Assembly: GCF_007954405.1 (NCBI RefSeq)
Contig: NZ_CP042344.1
Coordinates: 2,542,001-2,606,000, forward strand
Direction of reading: 5' to 3'
DNA from: Comamonas flocculans
GTDB lineage: Bacteria > Pseudomonadota > Gammaproteobacteria > Burkholderiales > Burkholderiaceae_C
DNA length: 64,000 nucleotides
In this document: positions 16,011-20,648 of the stretch, piece by piece
Layout: every line of letters begins with the position of its first letter
Numbering within the stretch: the stretch's first letter is position 1
Program-made: the position numbers and the translations under genes
Notes under the pieces: model-generated
The model's input: only the letters and a program-made list of their open reading frames with translations
Told to the model about the DNA's origin: nothing
The model's database searches: none

Positions 16011-17381
16011 GTGCCCAAAACCATGATCGAGCCGTTTCGCATCAAGAGCGTGGAGCCCATCCGCATGACCACGCGCCTTGAGCGCGAAAAGCTGCTGCAA
16101 GCCGCGCGGCTGAACGTTTTTCAGCTCAGGGCCGAAGACGTGCTGATCGACTGGCTCACCGACTCGGGCACCGGCGCGATGTCCGCGCGCCAGTGGGGCG
16201 CGATCATGGAGGGCGACGAGAGCTACGCCGGCGCGCGCAGCTACTTTCGCCTGGAGCAGGTGATCCGCGACATCACCGGCATGGAGCACTTCGTGCCCAC
16301 CCACCAGGGCCGCGCGGCCGAGAAGGTTCTGTTCACCGCCGTCTGCAAGAAGGGCGACCTGGTGCCGAGCAACTGCCACTTCGACACCACCCGCGCCAAC
16401 CTCGAATACGTCGGCGTGGAGGCGGTGGACTGCGTCATCGCCGAAGGCCTGCAGCCGGCCACGCTCCATCCCTTCAAGGGCAACATCGACCTTGCGCGCG
16501 TGGAGGCGCTGCTCAAGGAGCAGGGTGAGCGCATCCCGTTTGGCATGATCACCGTGACCAACAACACCGGCGGGGGCCAGCCGGTGTCCATGGCCAACAT
16601 CCGCGCCTACGCGGCCCTGCTCAAGAAGTACGGCAAGCCGCTCATCATGGACGTGTGCCGCTTTGCCGAAAACGCCATGTTCATCAAGATGCGCGAGAGC
16701 GGCTATGAGCACACCAGCGTGCGCGACATCGCGCGCGAGATGTTCAGCTACGCCGACGGCGCCACCATGAGCGCCAAGAAGGACGGCATGGTCAACATCG
16801 GCGGCTTCATCGTGCTGCGCGCCACCGATTGGCTGGACGAGGTGAGGAACGACCTCATCATGATGGAAGGCTTTCCCACCTACGGCGGCATGGCCGGGCG
16901 CGACCTGGAAGCGCTGGCCGTGGGCCTGGAAGAAGGGCTGGATGAGGACTACCTGCGCTACCGCCTGCGCACCGCGGAATATCTGGGCGAAAAACTGGAG
17001 GCCGCAGGCGTGGGCTTCGTCAAGCCCACGGGCGGTCATGCGGTGTACATCGATGCCAAGACGGTGCTGCCGGACATGCCCGTGGCCCACTACCCGGCCT
17101 GGGCGCTGTGCAATGCGCTCTATCTGGAAGGCGGCATCCGCGGCGTGGAAGTCGGTTCGATGATGTTCGGCAAGCGCCTGGACGATGGCACCGAGACCTT
17201 CCACAGCATGGAACTGGTGCGCCTGGCCTTTCCGCGGCGCATGTACACGCAAAGCCACTTCGACTATGCGGCGGAGGTGATTGCCGAAGTCAAGCAAAAG
17301 GCGGCGGCCATCCGCGGCGTGCGCATCACCAAGCAGCCCAGGTTCCTGCGCCACTTCACGGTGCAGTGCGACTGGGCCTGA
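16011..17381 (+). CDS. Tryptophanase/tyrosine phenol-lyase family protein (paralogue of unclear specificity)
   Basis: 456 aa from GTG 16011, which follows GGAAGGA by 6 nt; ATG 16023 is the alternative. PLP-dependent beta-eliminating lyase throughout: PTHQGRAAEK, FDTTRANLEYVG, VTNNTGGGQPVSMAN, MDVCRFAENAMFIK and the Schiff-base Lys in MSAKKDGMVNIGGF (Lys 257). At the position of the tyrosine phenol-lyase Thr124 it has Asp 125 (HFDTTR), as in tryptophanase (FFDTTQ). Where tyrosine phenol-lyase has GVRSMERG (Arg381) it has GIRGVEVGS, near the tryptophanase form GIRAVEIGS. It therefore looks tryptophanase-like, cleaving an aromatic or other beta-substituted amino acid to pyruvate and ammonia. It differs enough from TnaA that the substrate is open. 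196 nt upstream of tpl. Confidence 0.85.
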   Translation: MPKTMIEPFRIKSVEPIRMTTRLEREKLLQAARLNVFQLRAEDVLIDWLTDSGTGAMSARQWGAIMEGDESYAGARSYFRLEQVIRDITGMEHFVPTHQGRAAEKVLFTAVCKKGDLVPSNCHFDTTRANLEYVGVEAVDCVIAEGLQPATLHPFKGNIDLARVEALLKEQGERIPFGMITVTNNTGGGQPVSMANIRAYAALLKKYGKPLIMDVCRFAENAMFIKMRESGYEHTSVRDIAREMFSYADGATMSAKKDGMVNIGGFIVLRATDWLDEVRNDLIMMEGFPTYGGMAGRDLEALAVGLEEGLDEDYLRYRLRTAEYLGEKLEAAGVGFVKPTGGHAVYIDAKTVLPDMPVAHYPAWALCNALYLEGGIRGVEVGSMMFGKRLDDGTETFHSMELVRLAFPRRMYTQSHFDYAAEVIAEVKQKAAAIRGVRITKQPRFLRHFTVQCDWA

Positions 17382-17577
17382 AGCGGCGCGGCGGCGTTTT
17401 GCATGGAACTGCGTTGGCGCCGCCTTTGTCATGCGATAACGCAAAAAAAATGCGCCAAAAACGCAAAACAGAAAACCCTCTTTGATTCGAACCCCATAAA
17501 GTCGCTGTTACGTTGCGCAGTTGCGGCAATTTCGCCAAAACGCCATATATCAGTCCAACTTTATGGAGGTTCCGATC
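17382..17577 (+). promoter_or_regulatory. Spacer before tpl: weak hairpin and AT-rich promoter region
   Basis: Just after the first lyase gene, GGCGGCG (17390-17396) and CGCCGCC (17418-17424) can pair and are followed by TTTG, a weak terminator candidate with a long loop. An unusually AT-rich stretch follows (about 17438-17480, with A-tracts and repeated CGCAAAA/GCGCCAAAA), as expected for a regulated promoter of tpl. No exact -35/-10 pair stands out. GGAGGT at 17565-17570 is the tpl ribosome site. Confidence 0.4.
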
Positions 17578-19011: not shown

Positions 19012-20648
19012 CCGTAGGCCTGTCGCTGCTGCGCGCTCTCAAGAGCCACGGGGCGCGCGAAATCTTCGGTATTCCCGGGGATTTCGTGCTGCCGCTCTTC
19101 AAGCAGATCGAAGAGAGCGCCATCCTGCCGCTGGTCACGCTCAGCCATGAGCCTGGCCTGGGTTTCGCCGCCGATGCGGCGGTGCGCATGCACGGCGGCA
19201 TCGGCGTCACCGTGGTCACCTATGGCGCGGGGGCGCTGAACATGGTGAACGCCGTCGCCAACGCCTATGCCGAGCGCGTGCCGCTGGTCATCGTCGCGGG
19301 CTGCCCCGGCGCGCTTGAAGCGCAAAACGGCCTGGTGCTGCATCACCAGGTGCAGCACGTGGATACGCAGTGGCGCATCTTTCGCGAAATCACCTGCGAT
19401 CAGGTGCGCATTTCCGATCCGGCCCACGCGCCCGATGAAATCGCCCGCGTGCTGCGCCACTGCCGCGAGTATTCGCTGCCGGTGCTGATCGAGGTGCCAC
19501 GCGACATCACGCAGGCAGCGATGGGCGAGGTGCCGGTGCTGCCCGCTACCCCGTACAGCGACGAAGCCGTGGCCGAATGCGCCGACGAATGGATGCAGCG
19601 CATCCAAGCGGCGCGCCACCCCGTGCTGGTGGTGGACGTGGAGGTGCGCCGCTTCGGGCTGGAAGCGCGCGTGGCCGAGCTCGCCCGCCGCTTGCAACTG
19701 CCGGTGCTCACCACCTTCATGGGGCGCGGCCTGCTGGCCGAGGGCCAACTGCTTGAAGGCGTGCAGCTGCACGGTACCTATCTGGGCATTGCCGGTGATG
19801 CACGAACCACCGCGCTACTCGATGAATCGGACCTGCCGGTGATGCTGGGCGCGATTCTCTCGGATGTGAACTTCGGCGTGAGCGCCGAGAAGATCGACTT
19901 TCGCCGCGCCCTGATCGCCGCCCAGCGCGAAGCGCGCGTCGGGCATCACGTCTACCCCAACCTGCCGCTGGCAGCGCTGGTCGAAGCCCTGCTCCAGCGC
20001 ATCCCCGCCGCGACAAGGGCGCGGGCGCCCGCGCCCATGCCCATCGACGCCCCCGGTGGCTTGGTGGCCGACGACGAGCCGGTGCGCGCGGCCGACGTGA
20101 GCCGTGCGATCAATGACCGCATTCGCGCCCACGGGCCGCTGCCCATCGCCTCCGACATGGGCGACTGCCTGTTCGCCGCGATGGAGCTGTTGCCCACGAC
20201 GCTGGTGGCGCCGGGTTACTACGCCACGATGGGCTACGGCGTGCCCGCCGGAATGGGTGTGCAACTGGCCACCGGCGAGCGCAGCCTGACGCTGGTGGGC
20301 GATGGGGCGTTTCAGATGACCGGGCTGGAGCTGGGCAATTGCGCGCGCCTTGGCATCGACCCCATCGTGATCGTGCTCAACAACCAGAGCTGGGAAATGA
20401 TCCGCGCCTTCCAGCCCGAATCGCGCTGCTCTGATCTGGGCGACTGGCATCTGGCGCGCGTGGCCGACGCCATTGGCGGGCGTGGGCAGCGCGTGCGCAC
20501 GCGCCGCGAGTTCAAAGCGGCGTTGGACGCGGCCTTTGCCGAGCGCGGGCGTTTCCAGTTGATCGAGCTGATGATCCCGCCCGGTGACAGCACCCCGACG
20601 CTCAAGCGCTTTTCCGACGGCATTCACGCGATGCGCGCGCGGCGTTGA
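19008..20648 (+). CDS. ipdC: Phenylpyruvate/indolepyruvate decarboxylase (ThDP enzyme)
   Basis: 546 aa from TTG 19008, overlapping the tpl stop by 4 nt. ThDP-enzyme fold: [18 protein letters not shown] and [44 protein letters not shown] (catalytic Glu in HEP), middle domain [15 protein letters not shown], and the cofactor motif [36 protein letters not shown]. By recall it follows Azospirillum phenylpyruvate decarboxylase closely ([37 protein letters not shown]). Family members decarboxylate phenylpyruvate or indolepyruvate to the aldehydes; the indole route leads to the auxin indole-3-acetate. No arylpyruvate-forming aminotransferase lies nearby. Coupling to tpl implies a joint role in aromatic amino acid use. 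Confidence 0.87.

Follow-up and report, generated by a model that had tools for sequence, protein, structure and literature searches.

Comamonas flocculans carries, in a stretch of 64,000 nucleotides that we analysed as a whole (the window; contig NZ_CP042344.1, positions 2,542,001 to 2,606,000, within a single-contig genome of 3.33 Mb), a cluster of three genes that encode a tryptophanase-type beta-eliminating lyase (gene 1), a tyrosine phenol-lyase (TPL; gene 2), and a thiamine pyrophosphate (TPP)-dependent arylpyruvate decarboxylase (gene 3). Based on sequence comparisons, we lean towards reading this cluster as a composite set for the oxygen-independent breakdown of aromatic amino acids. 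The enzymes are ordinary; their arrangement is uncommon and recurrent, and relatives carry an anaerobic signature. The cluster would hence represent a consistent set of oxygen-free routes for aromatic amino acids in bacteria commonly held to be aerobes, and the recurrent unit of TPL and decarboxylase is readily testable. An original prediction, made from the letters of this DNA, had proposed two lyases and a decarboxylase at this locus, and open reading frames as well as family models confirm all three genes; the context that matters most, in which relatives of the decarboxylase and of TPL are tied to anaerobic genes and to FNR boxes, lay beyond such a first reading.

Gene 2 is a TPL, as judged by its family model (884.2 bits against a TIGR02618 cut-off of 720.7), by its eleven best-scoring solved sequences, all of which are TPLs, and by the residues T, M, R, and F, which it shares with all 17 reference TPL rows at the positions that we take to determine TPL specificity (Thr124, Met379, Arg381, and Phe448 in Citrobacter freundii numbering). 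In its model score and residue set it resembles the TPL (EC 4.1.99.2) of C. freundii and relatives; unlike TPL of that type, it is coupled to an arylpyruvate decarboxylase. The expectation that TPL would be rare in these bacteria was borne out, as a close TPL was found in 2 of 200 genomes of the Comamonadaceae (the family in all counts given here), including the window genome (G000), with a divergent TPL-type protein in 2 more and a TPL-type protein in 4 further genomes of a 369-genome class sample. Among the best 80 of 119 TPL loci, which were surveyed for neighbouring genes, the decarboxylase was located in the flank of two (L047, from Comamonas granuli, and L049; G and L numbers designate sampled genomes and loci) and gene 1 in the flank of two (L046 and L048). 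Inspection by eye suggested an upstream CRP/FNR-family-like regulator and a downstream permease at four TPL loci (L050, L051, L055, and L056). Three of these regulators were compared with NCBIfam models; the L056 protein gave weak matches that stayed under the cut-offs, and for L050 and L051 there was no match at 1e-10; the L050 permease narrowly exceeded the cut-off of an aromatic amino acid transporter subfamily (354.9 against 350). Unlike the TPL genes of Castellaniella (L050) and Comamonas (L051), the window TPL has neither a regulator-like gene nor a permease beside it, again by eye. A second TPL-like stretch adjoins TPL in L114 (52% identity to the window TPL) and L123 (44%, at a contig end), from Bacillota and a deltaproteobacterial metagenome-assembled genome.

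With regard to gene 1, a second beta-eliminating lyase had been proposed ahead of TPL; it is present, and can be refined to a tryptophanase-type enzyme rather than a second TPL. Gene 1 exceeded the cut-off of the NCBIfam tryptophanase subfamily PRK13238.1 (673.5 against 285 bits) and fell under both TnaA equivalog cut-offs (587.3 against 750 and 494.1 against 825.8 bits); as it passes the broad subfamily and fails the equivalog cut-offs, we refer to it as tryptophanase-type and not as a certified TnaA equivalog. Its score against the TPL model (506.8 bits) was under the cut-off and between the two TnaA model scores, and its best solved relatives were two tryptophanases (488.5 and 465.7 bits), followed by a TPL (432.2 bits) and the tryptophanase 1ax4 (414.2 bits). 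While raw scores alone leave the type of gene 1 undecided, tree and pocket residues place it as tryptophanase-type. In a tree of 51 lyase rows, a TPL and a tryptophanase side were distinct, two divergent TPL-type rows stood apart, and the specificity positions split like the tree; every TPL-type row in this set has T, M, R, and F, and rows on the tryptophanase side have D, then V or C, then I, V, or L, and finally H, with a single exception. Gene 1 and 14 family orthologues fall on the tryptophanase side, as does Escherichia coli TnaA. At the alignment positions of Asp137, Val394, Ile396, and His463 (E. coli numbering), which we assume to be the specificity residues of tryptophan indole-lyase, gene 1 has D137, V394, V396, and H463, with a conservative change from I to V at 396; all 15 family members keep D137 and H463, while position 394 is V or C and position 396 is I or V. 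This residue pattern and the shared side of the tree constitute the likeness of gene 1 to TnaA (EC 4.1.99.1), from which it differs in a Trp at E. coli position 50 that marks the gene 1 family (15 of 15 members), in being 46-58% identical to plasmid genes annotated as tryptophanase, and in its surroundings, as the window gene has no tnaB-like neighbour, scant room for a tnaC-like leader, and a promoter element of its own. The single exception to the residue split is a tryptophanase on a Variovorax paradoxus plasmid (L196, 3986-5371), in which Asn replaces His463 and which adjoins a divergent Lrp/AsnC regulator. The TPL-type lyases of G026 and G153 (L025 and L024), which share 36-39% identity with those of the window, form a deeply divergent branch.

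Gene 3 is, from its model match and active-site positions, a phenylpyruvate decarboxylase (PPDC) of the Azospirillum brasilense type; it scored 787.4 bits against the indolepyruvate/phenylpyruvate decarboxylase model TIGR03394 (cut-off 554.5), and, among solved sequences, A. brasilense PPDC (2nxw) matched it best (642.6 bits). Position 282 is Asp in all 25 decarboxylase rows compared, including that of the window, and position 462 is Ile or Leu (Ile in the window); both are positions to which we ascribe roles in the A. brasilense-type enzyme. Where a yeast-type pyruvate decarboxylase (2vjy alignment) has a Glu (the catalytic Glu477 of yeast), gene 3 has Ile, and all 25 rows read as PPDC and not as the pyruvate type. 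Pyruvate as the compound linking the lyases to the decarboxylase was therefore rejected as likely; without the catalytic Glu, the enzyme is unlikely to act on pyruvate released by the lyases, and the two kinds of step would form no chain, in agreement with what had been argued from the known products. Gene 3 shares with A. brasilense PPDC/IpdC the TIGR03394 match, D282, an aliphatic residue at 462, and an HH motif, and differs in having Ile rather than Leu at 462, as is found in the clade of TPL- and nrd-linked decarboxylases, in its coupling to TPL, and in that its family relatives are attached to ubiUVT or nrdDG genes. The decarboxylase was detected in 20 of 200 family genomes (37 of 399 in a larger draw) and is rare outside the family (4 of 368 other genomes of the class sample at 1e-110), where no ubi or nrd neighbour was found; no relatives were found on plasmids at 1e-80. 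A search of an open-access library for phenylpyruvate decarboxylase together with Asp282 gave no match.

Table 1. Positions of the cluster genes and associated elements within the window.
Feature	Position	Strand	Basis or remark
Tryptophanase-type beta-eliminating lyase (gene 1)	16011..17381	+	456 aa, GTG start; family models, TnaA-type residues, tree
Tyrosine phenol-lyase, TPL (gene 2)	17578..19011	+	477 aa; TIGR02618, T/M/R/F residue set, tree
Arylpyruvate (phenylpyruvate/indolepyruvate) decarboxylase, TPP-dependent (gene 3)	19008..20648	+	546 aa, TTG start; TIGR03394
TTGA overlap of TPL stop and decarboxylase start	19008..19011	+	TTG start 19008-19010, TGA stop 19009-19011
Conserved promoter element of gene 1, GTTGGAAAAAAGCGACACCA	15934..15953	+	imperfect inverted repeat, putative centre near -42
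-10-like hexamer TAAGTT of gene 1	15972..15977	+	constant spacing to core in relatives

Relatives bear out two of the gene starts (Table 1); the GTG start of gene 1 is supported by orthologues that start at the equivalent residue, mostly with ATG, and comparison with relatives places the TPL start at an ATG. The overlap between TPL and decarboxylase, with its TTG start, had been noted previously and is present, and the coupling recurs in other genomes. We found the TPL-decarboxylase pair in five genomes (the window genome, G638, C. granuli L047, L049, and G593), with an overlapping junction in four (TTGA in the window, GTGA in G638, and ATGA in L049 and G593); in C. granuli, a few bases separate the two genes. 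The flanks of the pair differ among the window, L047, and L049. Conservation of the three-gene order, which the original prediction had raised, holds in part, as the full trio was found in two genomes, i.e., the window genome and G638, which are of the same genus and share a leuC flank. Gene 1 and the decarboxylase also lie close together in a separate clade (L032, L035, and L031, the last with a single intervening gene) as well as in L239, which is outside the tree, and they co-occur in 7 of 200 genomes compared with 1.5 expected under independence (kinship not corrected). Titles and abstract openings in the open-access library searched yielded no account linking TPL with phenylpyruvate decarboxylase, TPL with Comamonas, or tryptophanase with the Comamonadaceae.

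The anaerobic signature is most evident in the neighbours of decarboxylase relatives. All 37 decarboxylase contexts were read, several of them shortened by contig ends; UbiU, UbiV, UbiT, NrdD, and NrdG2 were confirmed by curated models on examples and named elsewhere by tblastn from these examples. Fourteen of the 37 flanks (L139, L144-L147, L149-L151, L234-L236, L240, L242, and L244) contain ubi genes, some of them together with nrdD-nrdG, so that a decarboxylase relative adjoins the ubiUVT genes described for oxygen-independent ubiquinone synthesis (Pelosi et al. 2019, PMC6747719); unlike these relatives, the window decarboxylase is not in a ubiUVT operon. In 11 of the 37, ubiT is immediately upstream of the decarboxylase on the same strand; among the other ubi cases, G160 has one gene between, G730 a distance of about 1.9 kb, and G574 a decarboxylase divergent from ubiU. 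Three contexts (G085, G662, and G593) lack ubi genes and have nrdD and/or nrdG at up to about 5 kb, and six (G000, G638, G050, G166, G121, and G714) include gene 1. In a decarboxylase tree of 26 rows, which covers the sample other than 17 genomes of the larger draw, a set of four nrd- or TPL-linked rows (support 100/100) was separate from a set of ten rows, eight of them with ubi neighbours (100/99), and from a set of three gene 1-linked rows (99/98), with weak support for deeper forks; this suggests that the decarboxylase became linked to anaerobic genes or to gene 1 on more than one occasion. UbiU was also found in 17 of 20 decarboxylase genomes compared with 35 of 180 others (Fisher p 7.5e-9, kinship not corrected), and 35 of 52 UbiU genomes have no decarboxylase. 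The word "decarboxylase" is absent from the main text of PMC6747719 and occurs in PMC11707229 in the reference list only, and titles and abstract openings in the open-access library searched gave no link of ubiT, ubiU, or ubiV with a decarboxylase or of UbiU with phenylpyruvate. In G149, the decarboxylase lies between two UbiU matches that are separated by about 28 kb.

FNR boxes suggest a further link to anaerobic growth in relatives. Exact matches to the box tested (TTGATNNNNATCAA) are located upstream of TPL in L047, L049, L052 (whose flank has no decarboxylase), and G593; in G662 and G722, whose decarboxylase is not accompanied by TPL, boxes with one mismatch precede the decarboxylase. G593, G662, and G722 belong to a genus other than that of the window. 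The background amounted to 2 exact matches, one of which is that of G593, and 23 one-mismatch matches in 651,707 bases from 49 family loci. An FNR homologue (39-41% identity) with a CxxCx5C motif was present in 10 of 10 genomes tested.

Gene 1 appears to be an independent unit. It was found in 15 of 200 family genomes (100% identity in the window genome, 80-92% in the others), mostly without TPL and with varied neighbours; it adjoins ubiU in G004, G142, and G178, and UbiU occurs in 11 of 15 gene 1 genomes compared with 41 of 185 others in the 200-genome sample (Fisher p 9e-5, kinship not corrected). Comparison of 18 upstream regions (those of the 15 family genomes as well as G638, G714, and L046) identified a CGACACC core in 18 of 18, spaced 26 bp from a TANNTT hexamer in 16 and 25 bp in 2, while the distance from core to start codon varied from 39 to 76 bases. 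The left half of the element reads, in the best cases, TGTTGG, six bases, and CCGACA, so that the whole forms an imperfect inverted repeat (GTTGGAAA...CGACACC) with a predicted centre near -42, as expected of an activator site. The core is missing in all five related genes outside the orthologue group (L127-L130 and L195, the latter on a Limnohabitans plasmid, Comamonadaceae). In the window genome, the pattern occurs once without mismatch, and 29 further sites were found at two or three mismatches compared with 2 for a backward control. A plain sigma-70 scan did not pick up the TAAGTT hexamer, a sigma-70 and terminator scan of the cluster gave nothing exceeding shuffles, the hairpin 3' of gene 1 is weak (z -0.53), and no FNR box was found at up to one mismatch in 15 gene 1 upstream regions. 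A single operon for all three genes is unsupported, given that gene 1 has its own promoter element, although read-through from gene 1 into TPL is possible; a tnaC-like leader is likewise unlikely, as the conserved promoter would leave a leader of less than about 40 bases. A conserved promoter of its own and its usual occurrence apart from TPL set gene 1 off from its two neighbours; the trio therefore does not resemble a single ancestral unit, and we regard it as composite.

Together, these enzymes could act as follows. Gene 1 would convert Trp to indole, pyruvate, and ammonium, and TPL would convert Tyr to phenol, pyruvate, and ammonium, while ordinary transaminases would form aryl keto acids from Phe, Tyr, or Trp, which the decarboxylase would drain to aryl acetaldehydes. 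The usual first steps in the breakdown of these amino acids, catalysed by 4-hydroxyphenylpyruvate dioxygenase, Phe hydroxylase, and Trp 2,3-dioxygenase, need oxygen; under low oxygen such routes would halt, and beta-elimination and arylpyruvate decarboxylation could continue. The three enzymes would represent parallel outlets for Trp, Tyr, and aryl keto acids and not a chain, with TPL and decarboxylase as one coupled unit and the tryptophanase as another. Parallel handling of several aromatic amino acids, one of two options initially put forward, seems the most likely. The other option, an enzyme with an unknown substrate, is not supported, given that both lyases show the specificity residues of established types and the decarboxylase retains the signature positions of A. 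brasilense PPDC, and an undescribed pathway is not needed if the enzymes are read as parallel oxygen-independent outlets. An anaerobic, FNR-controlled setting is the probable origin of the TPL-decarboxylase unit, which in the genus of the window was probably placed behind a separately regulated tryptophanase.

For the phenol formed by TPL, the window genome has a ready candidate sink in a phenol cluster (L194, 4365-16001, at about 1.70 Mb) that includes a regulator, phenol hydroxylase subunits, and a 2-hydroxymuconic semialdehyde dehydrogenase. The dehydrogenase exceeded its model cut-off, the genome contains two Phenol_Hydrox genes, and the best model for the regulator was phenol regulator MobR (543.1 bits, under the cut-off of 999). 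Once oxygen is present, phenol could feed this oxygen-dependent phenol-hydroxylase and meta-cleavage pathway. Phenol_Hydrox matches were also found in G095 and G196, but not in G085 or in the genomes of L047 and L049. The phenol release suggested earlier is accordingly likely only where phenol hydroxylase is absent, which is not the case in the window genome.

Several observations weigh against an anaerobic role of the cluster. No FNR box was found ahead of the genes in the window, G638, L048 (G095), or L046; at up to one mismatch, the sole FNR-like box in the 64-kb window is at 57900, far from the cluster, and among the 79 TPL loci with 150 or more upstream bases (out of the best 80 of 119), just 3 have such a box. 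Depending on where the boxes lie relative to a promoter, FNR could also act as a repressor. The window genome gave no UbiU match and no NrdG2 match, and 14 of the 37 decarboxylase genes have no ubi, nrd, or gene 1 neighbour. G095, of the same genus as the window, has both lyases and no decarboxylase match, and L046 has no decarboxylase in its flank. Moreover, the window genome and those of L047 and L049 gave no PaaK-type ligase over cut-off, and phenylacetate-CoA was on this ground rejected as a sink in the window genome. As the window cluster has no such box and its genome no UbiU or NrdG2 match, the anaerobic tie belongs to relatives and not to this genome, and it may have been lost in the genus of the window.

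Alternative explanations for the cluster were also considered. That the three genes are neighbours by chance, without a common role, would fit the separate promoter and varied neighbours of gene 1, and we regard it as unlikely; the pair recurs in five genomes, with flanks that differ among the window, L047, and L049, and gene 1 and decarboxylase are found near each other in a separate clade and in L239 and co-occur more often than independence predicts. Alternatively, the decarboxylase could function in making the auxin indole-3-acetic acid, as in Azospirillum, and have the lyases as chance neighbours. While it shares both its model and its best solved relative with the A. brasilense enzyme, its repeated association with anaerobic genes or with the lyases, seen in three separate clades, makes this improbable. 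A reversed chain, in which phenol, pyruvate, and ammonium are joined to Tyr by TPL, transamination of Tyr yields 4-hydroxyphenylpyruvate, and the irreversible decarboxylase pulls the sequence towards oxygen-free phenol disposal, seems very improbable to us. The TPL reaction is reversible, its coupling to the decarboxylase recurs, and the genomes of L047 and L049 gave no phenol hydroxylase match, all of which would suit such a chain; however, the elimination direction is favoured at cellular concentrations, the window genome has a phenol hydroxylase, and the amino acid permease beside some TPL genes (by eye, and by model for L050) points to amino acid uptake.

The linkage of the decarboxylase to ubiUVT, which is more novel than the original cluster finding, raises one more explanation, namely that the enzyme clears an arylpyruvate, or a close analogue, left from prephenate by UbiUV or other U32 oxygen-independent hydroxylases, and survives beside TPL in the window lineage. 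Prephenate is reported as the hydroxyl source in UbiUV hydroxylation, with its transformation not yet demonstrated (PMC11574389), and it is discussed as a possible oxygen donor in an E. coli paper (PMC10470549). Speculatively, an arylpyruvate left over by UbiUV would lead one to expect a decarboxylase directly after ubiT, an arrangement that 11 of the 37 genomes show with both genes on one strand, and the enzyme class acts on phenylpyruvate. By contrast, the window genome and G095 have no UbiU, decarboxylases linked to nrdDG or to the lyases are without ubi neighbours in the flanks retrieved, and UbiU in 35 of 180 decarboxylase-free family genomes indicates that the decarboxylase is not required; in addition, the flux of ubiquinone hydroxylation is probably small, and phenylpyruvate could be transaminated to Phe. 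We thus consider clearance of a prephenate-derived product distinctly unlikely as the explanation of the cluster, compared with the composite set of oxygen-independent outlets that we favour. If it were true, the TPL-coupled decarboxylase of the window would be a relative of an anaerobic, ubiUVT-linked arylpyruvate-clearing enzyme; the decarboxylase located right after ubiT in many genomes offers a handle on the fate of prephenate in oxygen-independent ubiquinone synthesis.

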